Positions 12,054 through 18,576 of a DNA stretch of 54,421 bases are shown one piece after another. Made by a program: the position numbers and the translations under genes. The stretch covers positions 1 through 54,421 of the forward strand of contig JALCDF010000004.1 in NCBI GenBank assembly GCA_022641375.1, given 5' to 3'. Position 1 is the stretch's first letter. The number at the start of each line of letters is the position of its first letter. The notes beneath the pieces were generated by a model. It had not been told where the DNA came from. It saw only the letters and a list, made by a program, of their open reading frames with translations, and did not search any database. This DNA is from Megasphaera sp. (GTDB lineage Bacteria > Bacillota > Negativicutes > Veillonellales > Megasphaeraceae).

Positions 12054-12082
12054 TTGACAAAATATTAAAATACATATATAAT
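12054..12082 (+). promoter_or_regulatory. Consensus promoter of the argCJBD operon
   Basis: TTGACA at 12054-12059 and TATAAT at 12077-12082 are separated by 17 bp: both hexamers and the spacing are perfect. The ARG box overlaps the -10 and the start site, so repression would block initiation. Confidence 0.93.
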
Positions 12083-12097
12083 GAATAAAAATTCAAT
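12080..12097 (+). promoter_or_regulatory. ArgR/AhrC operator (ARG box)
   Basis: AATGAATAAAAATTCAAT matches the Bacillus ARG box CATGAATAAAAATKCAAK at 17 of 18 positions. It begins within the -10 box. A weaker AT-rich half-match (TTGAATAGAATTTATA) lies near 12116-12131. The regulator gene is not in this window. Confidence 0.85.
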
Positions 12098-12161: not shown

Positions 12162-13106
12162 ATGAAAACGAAAGTATTTATAGATGGTCACGCCGGGACG
12201 ACGGGGCTGCGGATCCACGAACGCCTTGCGGACCGCAGTGATATAGAATTGATTACGATCGATGAAGAACATCGTAAGGATGAAGCATCGATCCGGCAAT
12301 GTATGAAAGCCGCTGATATTACATTCCTCTGCCTGCCGGATGCGGCAGCCGTAGAAGCGGTGAAGCTGGCCGAAGGGTGCAATGTCCGTATTATCGATAC
12401 ATCGACGGCCCATCGCACGATGCCGGGCTGGACGTATGGTTTTCCGGAATTATCGGCACAACAGCCTGCGGCCATTGCCCAAAGCGACAGAGTTGGCAAT
12501 CCGGGCTGTCATGCCAGTGGCATGATTGCCGCAATCCAGCCGTTGATCAAGGCGGGACTGATGCCGGCAACATATCCAGTTACGGCCTTTTCCCTTACCG
12601 GATACAGCGGCGGCGGCAAAAAGATGATTAGTCAATACAAGGATCAGAAGGCCGATGAGCTGTATGCACCTCGTCAATACGGACTGGTGCAGCAGCATAA
12701 GCATTTGAAAGAAGTCATTGCTGTCTGCGGACTTACGGCGACGCCGATATTTACACCTATCGTCGATGATTATTACAGCGGTATGGAAGTCATGGTTCCA
12801 CTGTTTACGGATATGATGCAGGGGAAGCCCGCAAAGAAAGATATCTGGCAAGCCTTGGCAGCTCATTATGAAGGCAGCTCTTTTGTGCATGTGCTGTCGT
12901 TAGGAGAAGATAAAGGCGGCTACATTGCGGCCAATGCATTGAGCGGGTACGATGACATGGAAATCATCGTTACCGGCAATGATGACCGTGTCGTCGTCAC
13001 GACGTTGTTCGATAACCTCGGCAAGGGTGCTTCCGGGGCAGCCATACAAAATATGAATATTATGTTAGGATTGGATCCGAAAACAGGATTGAATCTGTTA
13101 CGATAA
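12162..13106 (+). CDS. argC: N-acetyl-gamma-glutamyl-phosphate reductase (short type)
   Basis: Reduces N-acetylglutamyl phosphate to the semialdehyde with NADPH. At 314 aa it belongs to the short, second ArgC type, which starts VFIDGHAGTTGLRIHERL. The nucleophilic Cys is in VGNPGCHASGM near residue 118, and FSLTGYSGGGKKMI follows. The ATG at 12162 follows a GAGG site. It is the first gene of the arg operon, directly downstream of a consensus promoter with an ARG box. The argJ-like gene follows after 23 bp. Confidence 0.95.
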   Translation: MKTKVFIDGHAGTTGLRIHERLADRSDIELITIDEEHRKDEASIRQCMKAADITFLCLPDAAAVEAVKLAEGCNVRIIDTSTAHRTMPGWTYGFPELSAQQPAAIAQSDRVGNPGCHASGMIAAIQPLIKAGLMPATYPVTAFSLTGYSGGGKKMISQYKDQKADELYAPRQYGLVQQHKHLKEVIAVCGLTATPIFTPIVDDYYSGMEVMVPLFTDMMQGKPAKKDIWQALAAHYEGSSFVHVLSLGEDKGGYIAANALSGYDDMEIIVTGNDDRVVVTTLFDNLGKGASGAAIQNMNIMLGLDPKTGLNLLR

Positions 13107-13129: not shown

Positions 13130-13846
13130 ATGAAACAGGAATATGATGATATTTGCATTCCCAAGGGATTTAGTGCGGCCGGTACCTATAGCGGTCTTTG
13201 CAAAAAGCGCGTAAAATTAGATTTAGCGATGATCGTCAGCCAGAATGACTGCTCTATTGTGACTGCCTGTGAGGGTACTACGACTTGTACCATCGGCAAG
13301 ACCTTGGTTTTGCATAATGGTACAGCCCTTCCTGAAGGTGAACGGGGCAAAGAAGTTCAAAAAGAAGTATGCCGGGCCGTATCGAAACGGCTGGGGATAC
13401 CGTCATATGATATTACCGTAGGTGCGTACGGAGATGCTCGTCAGTATTTCAAACCGTCGCTGCTCATCAACAGCCTGTCTACCCTGACGGCCGGCTTATC
13501 GTCGGCTCATGGCGGCCAGGTAGGTATGGTCATAGATAATAACGGCGATATCAGCGGCAGTACGGTTCCGTTTTGCGGTGATTGTCATATGAGTGGGATT
13601 GCCGCTGACGGCATGGAAGGACAGGCCGGATTGTGCATCATAACGACTGATGTGGCTACGAGCCCGCAACAGATTGAAAAGGCGCTGACGTTGTGCCATC
13701 AGATGATGGATTTGGAAGAGTTTAGAATTATTGTCATGTCTAATGGTGCGGCAACTCATTCGGCGAATGCGGCTGAACTGGCGCAGGCCATGCAGCAGCT
13801 TTTTAAAGAATTAGGGTTCCAGGATGCACTGCAGGCTTGTTCGTAA
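13130..13846 (+). CDS. Short ArgJ-like protein lacking the catalytic Thr
   Basis: A 238-aa protein in the position of argJ between argC and argB. The N-terminus CIPKGFSAAGTYSGLCKKRVK matches the ArgJ opening (GFxAAGxxxGIKKxxxxDLA). The middle GLCIITTDVATSPQQIEKAL aligns with the ArgJ region MLAFITTDA. Real ArgJ is about 400 aa and cleaves itself at Ala-Thr-Met-Leu; here the aligned segment reads GQAGLC, so the nucleophile Thr is replaced by Ala, and the protein ends about 60 residues later, so most of the beta chain is missing. Reading frame, ribosome site (AAGGTGGAG) and codon use look healthy, which argues against fresh decay. Normal ornithine acetyltransferase activity is unlikely by this reading; a regulatory or altered role is possible. 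Confidence 0.7.
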   Translation: MKQEYDDICIPKGFSAAGTYSGLCKKRVKLDLAMIVSQNDCSIVTACEGTTTCTIGKTLVLHNGTALPEGERGKEVQKEVCRAVSKRLGIPSYDITVGAYGDARQYFKPSLLINSLSTLTAGLSSAHGGQVGMVIDNNGDISGSTVPFCGDCHMSGIAADGMEGQAGLCIITTDVATSPQQIEKALTLCHQMMDLEEFRIIVMSNGAATHSANAAELAQAMQQLFKELGFQDALQACS

Positions 13847-13888: not shown

Positions 13889-14794
13889 ATGGTTGAATTG
13901 AAACACTTTAATGATATCAGTGCTGTCACAAATGCGCAGAAGGCGCAGATACTGATGGATGCATTACCGAATATCAAGAAATATAATGGAAAAATCGTGG
14001 TCATCAAATATGGTGGCAATGCCATGATAAACGAGGATTTACGTCAGTCCGTCATGGCGGATATCGTTCTTCTGAACCTGATTGGTGTAAAGGTCGTCCT
14101 GGTCCATGGCGGCGGCCCGCATATCAAAGAAATGCTCAATAAGATAGGGTTGGAATCTAAATTCCTGAATGGCCTCCGCGTTACCGATGCAGCTACCATG
14201 AAGATTGTCCAGATGGTACTGGCCGGCCAGGTCAACAAAGACCTGGTCAATCTCATCGGGTCCCTCGGCGGGGATGCCATCGGTCTTTGTGGTCTGGACG
14301 ATCAGATGATCAAAGTACGCAAACAGGATGATGCGTTAGGCTATGTCGGCAAGATCGTCGATGTCGATGTCGAAATCATCCGGGACAATCTGGATAAAGG
14401 GTATATTCCCGTCATTTCCACAATCGGGACCGATACACAGGGACAATCGTATAATATTAACGCCGATACGGCGGCAGCGGTCATTGCCGGCGCGTTGAAT
14501 GCGGAATGTATGCTGAATATGACGGACATCGATGGGGTGCTGGAAGATAAAGAAAAACCGGACACATTGATCCGGACGATGACGCTGACCCAGGCGGAAG
14601 AATTGAAAAAGCGGGGTATCATTGCCGGCGGCATGCTTCCCAAGGTGCAGTGTTGTACGGATGCGATCCAGGCCGGTGTCAAACGGGTCTTCATCATCAA
14701 TGGTACCGTACCGCATGCGATTCTCATCGAGCTCCTGACAGAAGAAGGTCTGGGGACGATGTTTATCGGACACTATTCTGTAGTGGGCCATTAG
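13889..14794 (+). CDS. argB: Acetylglutamate kinase
   Basis: Phosphorylates N-acetylglutamate, the second step of arginine synthesis. It is 301 aa. The nucleotide-binding Lys is in VVIKYGGNAM near residue 35, LVHGGGPHIKEML follows, and the acetylglutamate site is in NINADTAAAVIAGAL and IAGGMLPKVQ. The N-terminal extension before the kinase core (MVELKHFNDISAVTNAQKAQ) is of the type found in arginine-inhibited hexameric enzymes, so feedback inhibition is likely but not proven. The ATG at 13889 is preceded by a GGGGGAATACAGGG stretch. It lies 42 bp after the argJ-like gene. Confidence 0.96.
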   Translation: MVELKHFNDISAVTNAQKAQILMDALPNIKKYNGKIVVIKYGGNAMINEDLRQSVMADIVLLNLIGVKVVLVHGGGPHIKEMLNKIGLESKFLNGLRVTDAATMKIVQMVLAGQVNKDLVNLIGSLGGDAIGLCGLDDQMIKVRKQDDALGYVGKIVDVDVEIIRDNLDKGYIPVISTIGTDTQGQSYNINADTAAAVIAGALNAECMLNMTDIDGVLEDKEKPDTLIRTMTLTQAEELKKRGIIAGGMLPKVQCCTDAIQAGVKRVFIINGTVPHAILIELLTEEGLGTMFIGHYSVVGH

Positions 14795-14836: not shown

Positions 14837-16006
14837 ATGCCACAAAATTTCGAAACGATGGATAAAGAATATATCGTCAATGTATATAACCGGCTGGATG
14901 CCGTCATTGATCACGGCAAGGGCTCCGTTTTATATGATGTCAACGGCAAGGAATATATTGACCTCAGTGCCGGCATAGCCGTCAATATTTTTGGTGCCTG
15001 TGATGACGAATGGAAAAATGCCGTCATTGCACAGCTCAATAAATTAAGCCATATTTCTAATGTTTTTTATACGGAACCGCAGATTATCCTGGCCAAGAAG
15101 CTTTGCGAAAAAACGGGGATGAAGAAAGTATTTTTTTCCAATTCCGGCGCGGAAACGAATGAATGTGCGATAAAAACAGCCCGTAAATATTCTCATGATA
15201 AATACGGCGACGGCCGGTTTACCATCATTACGTTGAAAAACAGCTTCCATGGCCGTACGCTGGCAACATTGGCTGCCTGCGGGCAGGATGACCTGCATGA
15301 AGATTTCGGCCCCTTCCCGGCGGGATTCGTCTATGCCGATCCGGATGATTTTGAATCCGTAAAAAAATTGGCCGAAGAAAATAATGTGTGTGCCATCATG
15401 ATGGAAATGGTCCAGGGTGAAGGCGGCGTCCATCCGTTGGATAAAGAGTTTGTTCAACAGGTTGCGGCGTATGCCCACAGTCATGATATCCTTGTCATCG
15501 TCGATGAAGTACAGACCGGCAATGGCCGTACAGGAGCTTTATATGCGTATATGAATTATGGTATCCAGCCGGATATCGTTACGACGGCCAAAGCTATCGG
15601 CGGCGGCCTTCCCTTTGCGGCAACGATGTTTGCTGATTCCTGTCAGCATACGCTGACCAGTCATACCCATGGATCTACCTTTGGCGGCAATCCTATTTGT
15701 GCTGCCGGGGCGATTTCCATCATAGACCGCATTGATGATGCGCTGTTGAAAGACGTACGGGAAAAAGGCGCGTATATCAAACAGGAACTGGAAAGCTGTC
15801 AAAATGTTGAAGGCGTATCCGGTATGGGTCTGATGATCGGGGTTACGTTGAAAAAAGATTTGAATACCGTTGTCAATGAATGCATCGATGCCGGTGTCCT
15901 GGTCCTTACGGCCAATGGATTATTGCGGCTCCTGCCGCCGCTCAATATTCCCTGGGATGTCCTGAAAAAGGGGATTACTGTCATTAAGAGCATTATTGAT
16001 GCCTGA
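14837..16006 (+). CDS. argD: Acetylornithine aminotransferase
   Basis: PLP-dependent conversion of N-acetylglutamate semialdehyde to N-acetylornithine; many homologues also serve in lysine synthesis. It is 389 aa. FSNSGAETNECAIKTAR and NSFHGRTLATLAACGQ are class III aminotransferase motifs, VIVDEVQTGNGRTG contains the cofactor Asp, and the PLP Lys is in TTAKAIGGGLPFAA. The ATG at 14837 follows GGGAGGA. It is the last arg gene; no argF, argG or argH follows, so citrulline and arginine formation must be encoded elsewhere. Confidence 0.96.
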   Translation: MPQNFETMDKEYIVNVYNRLDAVIDHGKGSVLYDVNGKEYIDLSAGIAVNIFGACDDEWKNAVIAQLNKLSHISNVFYTEPQIILAKKLCEKTGMKKVFFSNSGAETNECAIKTARKYSHDKYGDGRFTIITLKNSFHGRTLATLAACGQDDLHEDFGPFPAGFVYADPDDFESVKKLAEENNVCAIMMEMVQGEGGVHPLDKEFVQQVAAYAHSHDILVIVDEVQTGNGRTGALYAYMNYGIQPDIVTTAKAIGGGLPFAATMFADSCQHTLTSHTHGSTFGGNPICAAGAISIIDRIDDALLKDVREKGAYIKQELESCQNVEGVSGMGLMIGVTLKKDLNTVVNECIDAGVLVLTANGLLRLLPPLNIPWDVLKKGITVIKSIIDA

Positions 16007-16419: not shown

Positions 16420-18576
16420 ATGAAACATTTAAAGATAGCATACAGTTTTGACGTACAATATTATTTTGTAGACAGTGATCGCGATATCGTTCCGGTGGAG
16501 CAGACCGATTTTACGGATGTTGCTGTAGCCGTTTTGTCAGATCAGGATTTTTCGTATATCGATAAAATAGATGCCACGGGATTTGGCATTCCCATCATGG
16601 TCATCATGCCGGGCGGAGAAAAGATGCCGGTCCACTATGCTGATAAAGTAGATGCTGTCATTACGGAAGAAATGGTCAATAAAAGCCGCTGTATCGTTAC
16701 GGCCGAACGCCTGGCCAGCCGGTATGAACAATCCGTACTGCCGCCGTTTTTTGCCGATTTGGTGGATTATGTCAGCGAAAAGAATAACCCATTCGACTGT
16801 CCCGGCCATCAGGATGGTGCTTTTTTTAAGAAGCATCCGGCCGGCCGCTATCTTTATGATTTCTATGGACCTCATATTTTCCAGTCGGATATTTGCAATG
16901 CCGATGTTACCCTCGGGGACTTGCTTATTCATGAAGGTCCGGCGTTGGAAGCGCAGGATTTTGCAGCCGAAGTGTTCCATGCCGATAAGACGTATTTCGT
17001 TTTAGGCGGATCGTCCGCGTCTAATAAAATCGTGACGACGGCATTGCTTACGCCGGGGGACCTCGTCCTGTATGACCGCAATAACCATAAATCCGTGGCT
17101 ATCGGGGCCCTGATTGAAGCCGGCGCAGCTCCGGTATATTTGGAAACGGCCCGTAATCCCTACGGCTTTATCGGCGGTATCGATGCCCATTGTTTCAATG
17201 AAGACTATCTGCGCCGTCTGGCGGCTGAACGGGACCCGGAAAAGGCAAAGGCAAAGCGTCCGTTCCGACTGGCGGTAATTCAGCTGGGGACATACGACGG
17301 CACATTATATAATGCCCGTTATGTTGTCGATAAAATCGGTCATCTCTGTGATTATATCCTGTTTGATTCAGCCTGGGTCGGGTATGAACAATTTATTCCT
17401 ATGCTGCGTGACAGCAGCCCGCTGCTGCTGCATATGCATCCCGATGATCCGGGTATCATGGTCGTCCAGTCGGTCCACAAACAGCAGGCCGGTTTTTCCC
17501 AGACTTCACAGATTCATAAAAAAGACAGCCATATCCATGACCAGCAGCGATATTGTAATCATAAGACATTCAACAATGTCTTTATGGCCAATTCTTCGAC
17601 CAGTCCGTTTTACCCCATGTTTGCTACGATTGCGGTCAATGCGAAAATCCATGCCGGCGCGGCCGGGCGCAAGATGTGGCGCGATTGCGTGAAGATGGGG
17701 ATTGATGCCCGTAAGAGTATCCTGAACCGTTGCCATTATGTACGGCCCTTTGTAGCGCCGACAGTACATGGCAAGTCCTGGCAGGACGGCGATACGGATG
17801 CGATGGCGGATGATATCGCGTATTTCACCTTTGAACCGGGTGCGAAATGGCATGCGTTTGAAGGGTATGGGCCGGATCAGTACCGCGTGGATCCGTGCAA
17901 GCTCTTGCTGACGACACCGGGAATCAATACGGAAACCGGGGAATACGAGGATTTCGGTATCCATGCCAATATATTGGCGACATATTTACGGGGTAACGGC
18001 GTTATTCCGGAAAAATGCGATCTCAACTCCATTTTATTTCTCCTGACACCGGCGGAAAACAAGAATAAACTTCGTTTCCTTACGTCTCAGCTGGTGCGGT
18101 TTGAACGATTCGTCGATATCGATGTGCCGATGCAGGAAGTGCTCCTGGGAGTCTATAATTCCCATCCGGCACGGTATGAAGGATATACGATTCGGCAGCT
18201 TTGTCAGGAAATGCATGATTTCTATAAAGTACGCAATGTCAAAGAACTGCAGAAAAAATTGTTCCGCCGCGAGTATTTCCCGGAATATGTCATGAGTCCG
18301 CAGGATGCGCATCATGCCTTTATCAGAGGGCAGCGGGAACTGGTTCCACTGGATGAAATCGAGGGCCGCATCGCGCTGGAAGGGGCATTGCCTTATCCGC
18401 CGGGTGTCCTCTGCGTCGTACCGGGCGAACGGTGGTCGCCTACGGCAGTGAAGTATTTCCAGGCACTGGAAGAAGGACTGAATGAATTGCCCGGTTTTTC
18501 TTCGGAAATACAAGGTGTTTATCTGGAACATGAAGACGGCCGCATCAAGGCGTATGGATATGTATTAAAAGAATAA
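16420..18576 (+). CDS. speF: Ornithine decarboxylase, SpeF/SpeC type
   Basis: PLP enzyme that decarboxylates ornithine to putrescine. The 718-aa length and the long stretches shared with E. coli SpeF (FDCPGHQ, FNP-type YLETARNPYGFIGGIDAH, QLGTYDGTLYNAR) identify the large fold-I decarboxylase with an N-terminal wing domain, a central PLP domain and a C-terminal domain. The PLP Lys is K354 in SVHKQQAGFSQTSQ. The substrate-site region ALPYPPGVLCVVPGE lies near residue 650. The ATG at 16420 follows AAGGAG. It is monocistronic with its own promoter and a terminator. No potE-type ornithine-putrescine antiporter is adjacent. The similarity to enterobacterial proteins is striking for a Firmicutes lineage and may reflect transfer. 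Confidence 0.94.
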   Translation: MKHLKIAYSFDVQYYFVDSDRDIVPVEQTDFTDVAVAVLSDQDFSYIDKIDATGFGIPIMVIMPGGEKMPVHYADKVDAVITEEMVNKSRCIVTAERLASRYEQSVLPPFFADLVDYVSEKNNPFDCPGHQDGAFFKKHPAGRYLYDFYGPHIFQSDICNADVTLGDLLIHEGPALEAQDFAAEVFHADKTYFVLGGSSASNKIVTTALLTPGDLVLYDRNNHKSVAIGALIEAGAAPVYLETARNPYGFIGGIDAHCFNEDYLRRLAAERDPEKAKAKRPFRLAVIQLGTYDGTLYNARYVVDKIGHLCDYILFDSAWVGYEQFIPMLRDSSPLLLHMHPDDPGIMVVQSVHKQQAGFSQTSQIHKKDSHIHDQQRYCNHKTFNNVFMANSSTSPFYPMFATIAVNAKIHAGAAGRKMWRDCVKMGIDARKSILNRCHYVRPFVAPTVHGKSWQDGDTDAMADDIAYFTFEPGAKWHAFEGYGPDQYRVDPCKLLLTTPGINTETGEYEDFGIHANILATYLRGNGVIPEKCDLNSILFLLTPAENKNKLRFLTSQLVRFERFVDIDVPMQEVLLGVYNSHPARYEGYTIRQLCQEMHDFYKVRNVKELQKKLFRREYFPEYVMSPQDAHHAFIRGQRELVPLDEIEGRIALEGALPYPPGVLCVVPGERWSPTAVKYFQALEEGLNELPGFSSEIQGVYLEHEDGRIKAYGYVLKE

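Follow-up and report, generated by a model that had tools for sequence, protein, structure and literature searches.

The arginine operon of Megasphaera sp. on contig JALCDF010000004.1, which we analysed over a stretch of 54,421 nucleotides (hereafter the window), raises the question of what occupies the position of argJ. Between argC and argB lies a gene, here called X, whose 238-aa product was claimed in a preliminary description to be a homologue of the ornithine acetyltransferase ArgJ that has lost its nucleophilic Thr. We asked whether X is indeed related to ArgJ, what it has lost, whether it is maintained by selection and which role it could play. A literature search for the X protein found nothing.

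The argC-X-argB-argD operon

The four genes follow one another with gaps of 23, 42 and 42 bp (Table 1), and X is preceded by a plausible ribosome-binding site, AGGAAGGTGGAG. The ARG box upstream of argC is the sole match in the window and has no mismatches, with 0.12 matches expected at up to one mismatch. All 10 genomes checked have a TTGACA-17/18-TATAAT promoter upstream of argC, and in nine of these, including genome G001 that has no X (see below), an ARG box with at most one mismatch adjoins the -10 region; the remaining genome, G014, has the promoter and no clear ARG box. Given the shared promoter and ARG box, X is probably transcribed together with the arginine-repressed biosynthetic genes. 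The ornithine decarboxylase gene downstream of argD suggests that the ornithine made by the operon also feeds putrescine. Such a gene was also seen close downstream of the operon in the relatives read (L023, L024, L026, L027, L029 and L044).

Table 1. Features of the arginine operon region in the window.
Feature	Coordinates	Strand	Length	Model match or remark
Sigma-70 promoter of the arg operon, TTGACA-17-TATAAT	12054..12082	+		consensus match 12/12
ARG box AATGAATAAAAATTCAAT, likely ArgR/AhrC operator	12080..12097	+		overlaps the -10 region
argC, short type-2 N-acetyl-gamma-glutamyl-phosphate reductase (argC2)	12162..13106	+	314 aa	TIGR01851, 377 bits (cut-off 230)
X, shortened ArgJ-fold protein without nucleophile Thr	13130..13846	+	238 aa
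argB, acetylglutamate kinase	13889..14794	+	301 aa	TIGR00761, 252 bits (cut-off 151)
argD, acetylornithine aminotransferase	14837..16006	+	389 aa	TIGR00707, 417 bits (cut-off 410)
Ornithine decarboxylase	16420..18576			NF010092, 1204 bits (cut-off 794); downstream of argD

Relationship of X to ArgJ

The likeness of X to ArgJ is weak when judged from the single sequence but decisive when judged from profile and fold. ArgJ corresponds to the families PF01960 and TIGR00120 and to the structures 1vz6-1vz8, 2vzk, 3it4 and 1vra. As a single sequence, X scored 16.7 bits against Pfam ArgJ (PF01960, cut-off 32) and 20 bits against NCBIfam PRK05388 (cut-off 351), and by curated sequence cut-offs it falls outside the ArgJ family. 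When a profile of 12 X orthologues was aligned with 13 ArgJs using hhalign, the probability of homology was 99.1% (E 1e-18). The AlphaFold model of X, built on 12 sequences (pLDDT of 52-79 in five models; best model, pLDDT 79 and pTM 0.80), superimposed on the Streptomyces ornithine acetyltransferase 1vz8 with a Z score of 19.4 and an rmsd of 3.3 over 219 residues, the match extending from residue 10 to residue 238 of X and from residue 8 to residue 272 of the 1vz8 chain. Foldseek matched the same model to OAT2 with an E-value of 4e-13. The predicted structure thus shows X to have the ArgJ fold over the length of the alpha chain and the beginning of the beta chain.

Loss of the catalytic apparatus

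X is shorter than ArgJ by about 165-170 aa, of which about 120 correspond to the absent C-terminal domain and the remainder to internal deletions of 13, 4 and 10 residues in the regions of GTFTQN.V.AAP, MATM and FN..SVDGD, respectively. In the sequence alignment, the GQAGLC segment of X is placed opposite the MATMLC of ArgJ and MATM is deleted in all 12 X proteins, whereas in the profile alignment the residue of the X orthologues that faces the ArgJ Thr is A, S, H, P, D or K; neither places a Thr there. In the ArgJ of Mycobacterium tuberculosis, cleavage occurs between Ala199 and Thr200 and the Thr is catalytic (PMC5887547). The C-terminal beta-chain domain with its ADGEGATK and GxDxNWGR motifs is missing from 12 of the 12 X proteins. 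The STG motif has also been altered: its Gly is retained (G101), but Ala has replaced the Ser and the Thr position is taken by Y, N, S or T. We take the Thr-Gly pair of this motif to form the oxyanion hole of ArgJ. Within the span aligned to X, 113 columns are invariant among 13 ArgJs; X keeps only eight of these, and all X proteins have lost 38 by deletion.

With the nucleophile gone, along with further segments of the active site and the C-terminal domain, the alignments and the structural model support the view that X cannot be an ordinary ornithine acetyltransferase. The preliminary description had reached this view from the window alone, and in this as well as in its recognition of a Thr-less ArgJ homologue within the arg operon and its placement of GQAGLC opposite MATML it agrees with the open reading frame, the profile and structure comparisons and the gene neighbourhood. 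Its statement that X ends about 160 residues short gave nearly the right size for the loss, but placed at the C-terminus what is partly internal.

It could be argued that X is an ordinary argJ that was frameshifted or made chimaeric in assembly, and the window genome, in 73 contigs and 79% complete, would be a fitting source of such an artefact. However, the same structure, at a like length, is found in 11 other genomes, including the single-contig genomes G006 and G007, which rules out a frameshift, and the 42 bp separating X from argB could not hold the missing 120 codons. We therefore give assembly error practically no chance. A separate gene encoding the missing C-terminal half was likewise rejected: the family genomes contain no second PF01960 match and there is no room for one before argB.

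Distribution and selection

X is present in 12 of the 17 genomes of the family, which belong to Megasphaera and one sister genus. Its length is about 230-242 aa (238-242 aa except for one shorter member) and its identity to the window copy is 45-79%, with an outlier in genome G002 (29-30%). The order argC2-X-argB-argD is found in every X-containing genome whose contig covers the operon; in G003 the contig begins shortly before X and argC lies on another contig. In the genomes searched (380 from the class, 398 from the phylum), short X proteins were found in this family only, and all other matches to X fell in longer frames (320-595 aa, nearly all of them about 400 aa or more). A DNA-pattern scan of a contig collection, of a kind that reaches close relatives only, returned one Megasphaera record.

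Purifying selection maintains X in most species. Pairwise dN/dS ratios, for pairs with measurable dS, are in the range of 0.06-0.17, and those of argB and argD in the range of 0.01-0.07; X evolves several times faster than these neighbours, and its synonymous divergence is near saturation in the wider pairs. Among the X proteins 37 columns are invariant, and 16 of these hold residues absent from the aligned ArgJs, including T19, S21, R27, H62, L67, P68, R72, C81, F107, P109 and S110. Judging from the secondary structure of the X model, these X-specific residues appear to surround the former active-site cleft, at the ends of strands and the beginnings of helices, where ArgJ has its NSGNAN and STG motifs. 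Most members also share a new C-terminus, LGFQxALxACS. X is thus shown to be a catalytically dismantled, conserved and selected derivative of ArgJ.

The preliminary description held that its reading would be refuted by loss of X from close relatives without other change, and such loss was seen in part. In G001 and G014, two Megasphaera genomes, argC2 is followed directly by argB, the argB-argD pair is kept and no match to X exists anywhere in the genome (the G001 assembly consists of two contigs and is 100% complete). Thus, the operon can persist without X, and X is not indispensable. In a tree of argC and argB, G001, G014 and G002 group together with weak support (28 and 58%), and it looks as if X was eroded and lost in this one lineage and retained elsewhere.

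These observations bear on the possibility that X is a decaying relic, i.e. that ArgJ became redundant, shed its domains and is now being lost. Its fast evolution relative to its neighbours, its strong divergence in G002 and its absence from G001 and G014, together with the grouping of these three genomes, are what this scenario would predict. However, the frame has stayed open and nearly constant in length in 12 species despite the near-saturated synonymous divergence of the wider pairs, the dN/dS values are far below 1, and X has acquired a conserved C-terminus and invariant residues of its own. Decay is therefore an unlikely explanation of X.

Origin of X

A candidate for the ancestral arrangement is found in genus g30, from another family of the class, whose operon has the order argC2-argJ-argB-argD with an intact ArgJ (L110, L111, L112 and L114-L116). 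The g30 argC is of the same short type (TIGR01851) as that of Megasphaera, and when full-length proteins are matched to the X profile, the g30 ArgJ ranks among the best (E 6e-16). Elsewhere in the order, the families that were read have argJ together with a long argC, and the Megasphaera argB genes are placed nearer to g30 than to the order's other families in the argB tree. With such an operon at hand in g30, X is probably the remodelled ArgJ of a similar argC2-argJ-argB-argD operon.

The rest of the arginine pathway

None of the 17 family genomes encodes a real ArgJ scoring above the cut-off. In a prefiltered genome search, the ArgA model TIGR01890 matched only argB and weak GNAT proteins, no PRK07922-type amino-acid N-acetyltransferase exceeded its cut-off, and none of the many M20 proteins exceeded the ArgE cut-off (TIGR01892). 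Nine GNAT proteins were scanned; none passes a NAGS model and one is RimI. Since the search was prefiltered and missed the otherwise recurrent RimI in G007, it does not prove the absence of ArgA, ArgE or another acetyltransferase.

The later pathway is better represented: argH scores above the cut-off in 15 of the 17 genomes, and a divergent carbamoyltransferase is present in all genomes with the arg operon and absent from three genomes without it, which fits the later steps of arginine synthesis. This carbamoyltransferase scored 272 and 216 bits against ornithine carbamoyltransferase models vs 97 bits against that of N-acetylornithine carbamoyltransferase, all under the cut-offs. A shift to N-acetylornithine carbamoyltransferase, which we considered, is thus unproven, the gene being more like the ornithine carbamoyltransferase models. 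It is the sole ornithine carbamoyltransferase candidate in the Megasphaera genomes (G000:C1:72658-73575, L141; also L139-L150) and has HDMP for HCLP, DTWVDME for the SMG loop and SNRTY for STRTR. In G014 and G015 it is split into two frames (G014:C28:49643-50559, L160; G015:C55:88874-89792), through either sequencing error or gene decay. In the X-free G001, a carbamoylase/allantoate-amidohydrolase-type M20 gene directly follows argD (L044, 4837-6075) and is a possible candidate for the pathway deacetylase.

The Megasphaera arginine pathway thus shows a gap, with no recognized acetylglutamate synthase, ArgJ or ArgE found, and to annotate X as ArgJ, or to predict arginine prototrophy from its presence, would be wrong. 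This gap is also a point in favour of a reshaped enzyme, in which X would catalyse N-acetylglutamate synthesis or acetyl removal with new catalytic residues: ArgJ and, above the cut-offs, ArgA, PRK07922-type enzymes and ArgE were not found in genomes that have argB, argC, argD, argH and a carbamoyltransferase, and the 16 X-invariant residues absent from ArgJ include H62, R72 and C81. Against such an enzyme stand the loss of the C-terminal domain and of the nucleophile along with other active-site segments, the retention of the remaining operon in G001 and G014, and the M20 hydrolases and GNAT proteins of these genomes, which could supply both missing steps. We consider catalysis by X doubtful, if worth keeping in mind.

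Possible role of X

As the catalytic centre has been lost and X has nevertheless been kept by selection, X is probably a non-catalytic helper or sensor. We give a probability of roughly one half to its being a non-catalytic accessory protein (a sensor, scaffold or partner) of the synthesis of N-acetylated arginine and ornithine precursors, which is the reading we favour. A full-length ArgJ of an argC2-argJ-argB-argD operon would have been reduced to X, which would have stopped transferring acetyl groups and been retained as an accessory protein. Its remodelled former active-site cleft may bind a pathway metabolite, X may bind a partner enzyme (candidates being ArgB, ArgC or another acetyltransferase), or both, and N-acetylglutamate synthesis and acetyl removal would be performed by other enzymes. 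The fast evolution of X, its divergence in G002 and its loss from G001 and G014 count against an accessory role; as the latter two genomes keep argC, argB and argD, any role of X is not essential to the pathway.

In a more specific proposal, an N-acetylglutamate synthase or acetyl-cycle enzyme would consist of two proteins, one of them X, whose cleft would bind glutamate or acetylglutamate and present it to a GNAT or M20 partner or regulate that partner. Short N-acetylglutamate synthases have been speculated to require a partner that supplies the glutamate site (PMC3827942). If this were true, the arginine pathway of the clade would run without ArgA, ArgJ or a recognized ArgE; we consider it quite improbable. 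Of the roles offered in the preliminary description, the relic is disfavoured by dN/dS, length and the new invariant residues, and the regulatory subunit (or partner) and the reshaped enzyme remain. Its further statement, that the cycle requires another acetyltransferase or deacetylase for its completion, follows from the biochemistry, but no such enzyme scored above the ArgE, ArgA or PRK07922 cut-offs in our non-exhaustive search. X clearly illustrates how an enzyme can lose its chemistry and yet keep its operon slot and stay under selection.

Comparison with known systems

Among characterized proteins, X is closest to ArgJ, the ornithine acetyltransferase and bifunctional N-acetylglutamate synthase, with which it shares the fold of the alpha chain and early beta chain, the slot in the arginine operon and scattered residues (GF, D..A.I, the G of STG, TTD and the ANG region). 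It differs from ArgJ, a protein of about 400 aa, in lacking the Thr nucleophile and cleavage site, GTFTQN, FN..SVDGD and the C-terminal domain, in having invariant residues of its own and in scoring below the family cut-offs. The operon of g30 resembles that of X in gene order and in its short argC, but its ArgJ is full length, has MATML and scores 479 bits against TIGR00120. More distantly, Foldseek and VIA-align match X to the DmpA/NylC/ThnT/BapA fold group (Z scores of 10-13); these are nucleophile hydrolases of 300-370 aa with about 10% identity to X, and have only the general fold in common with it.
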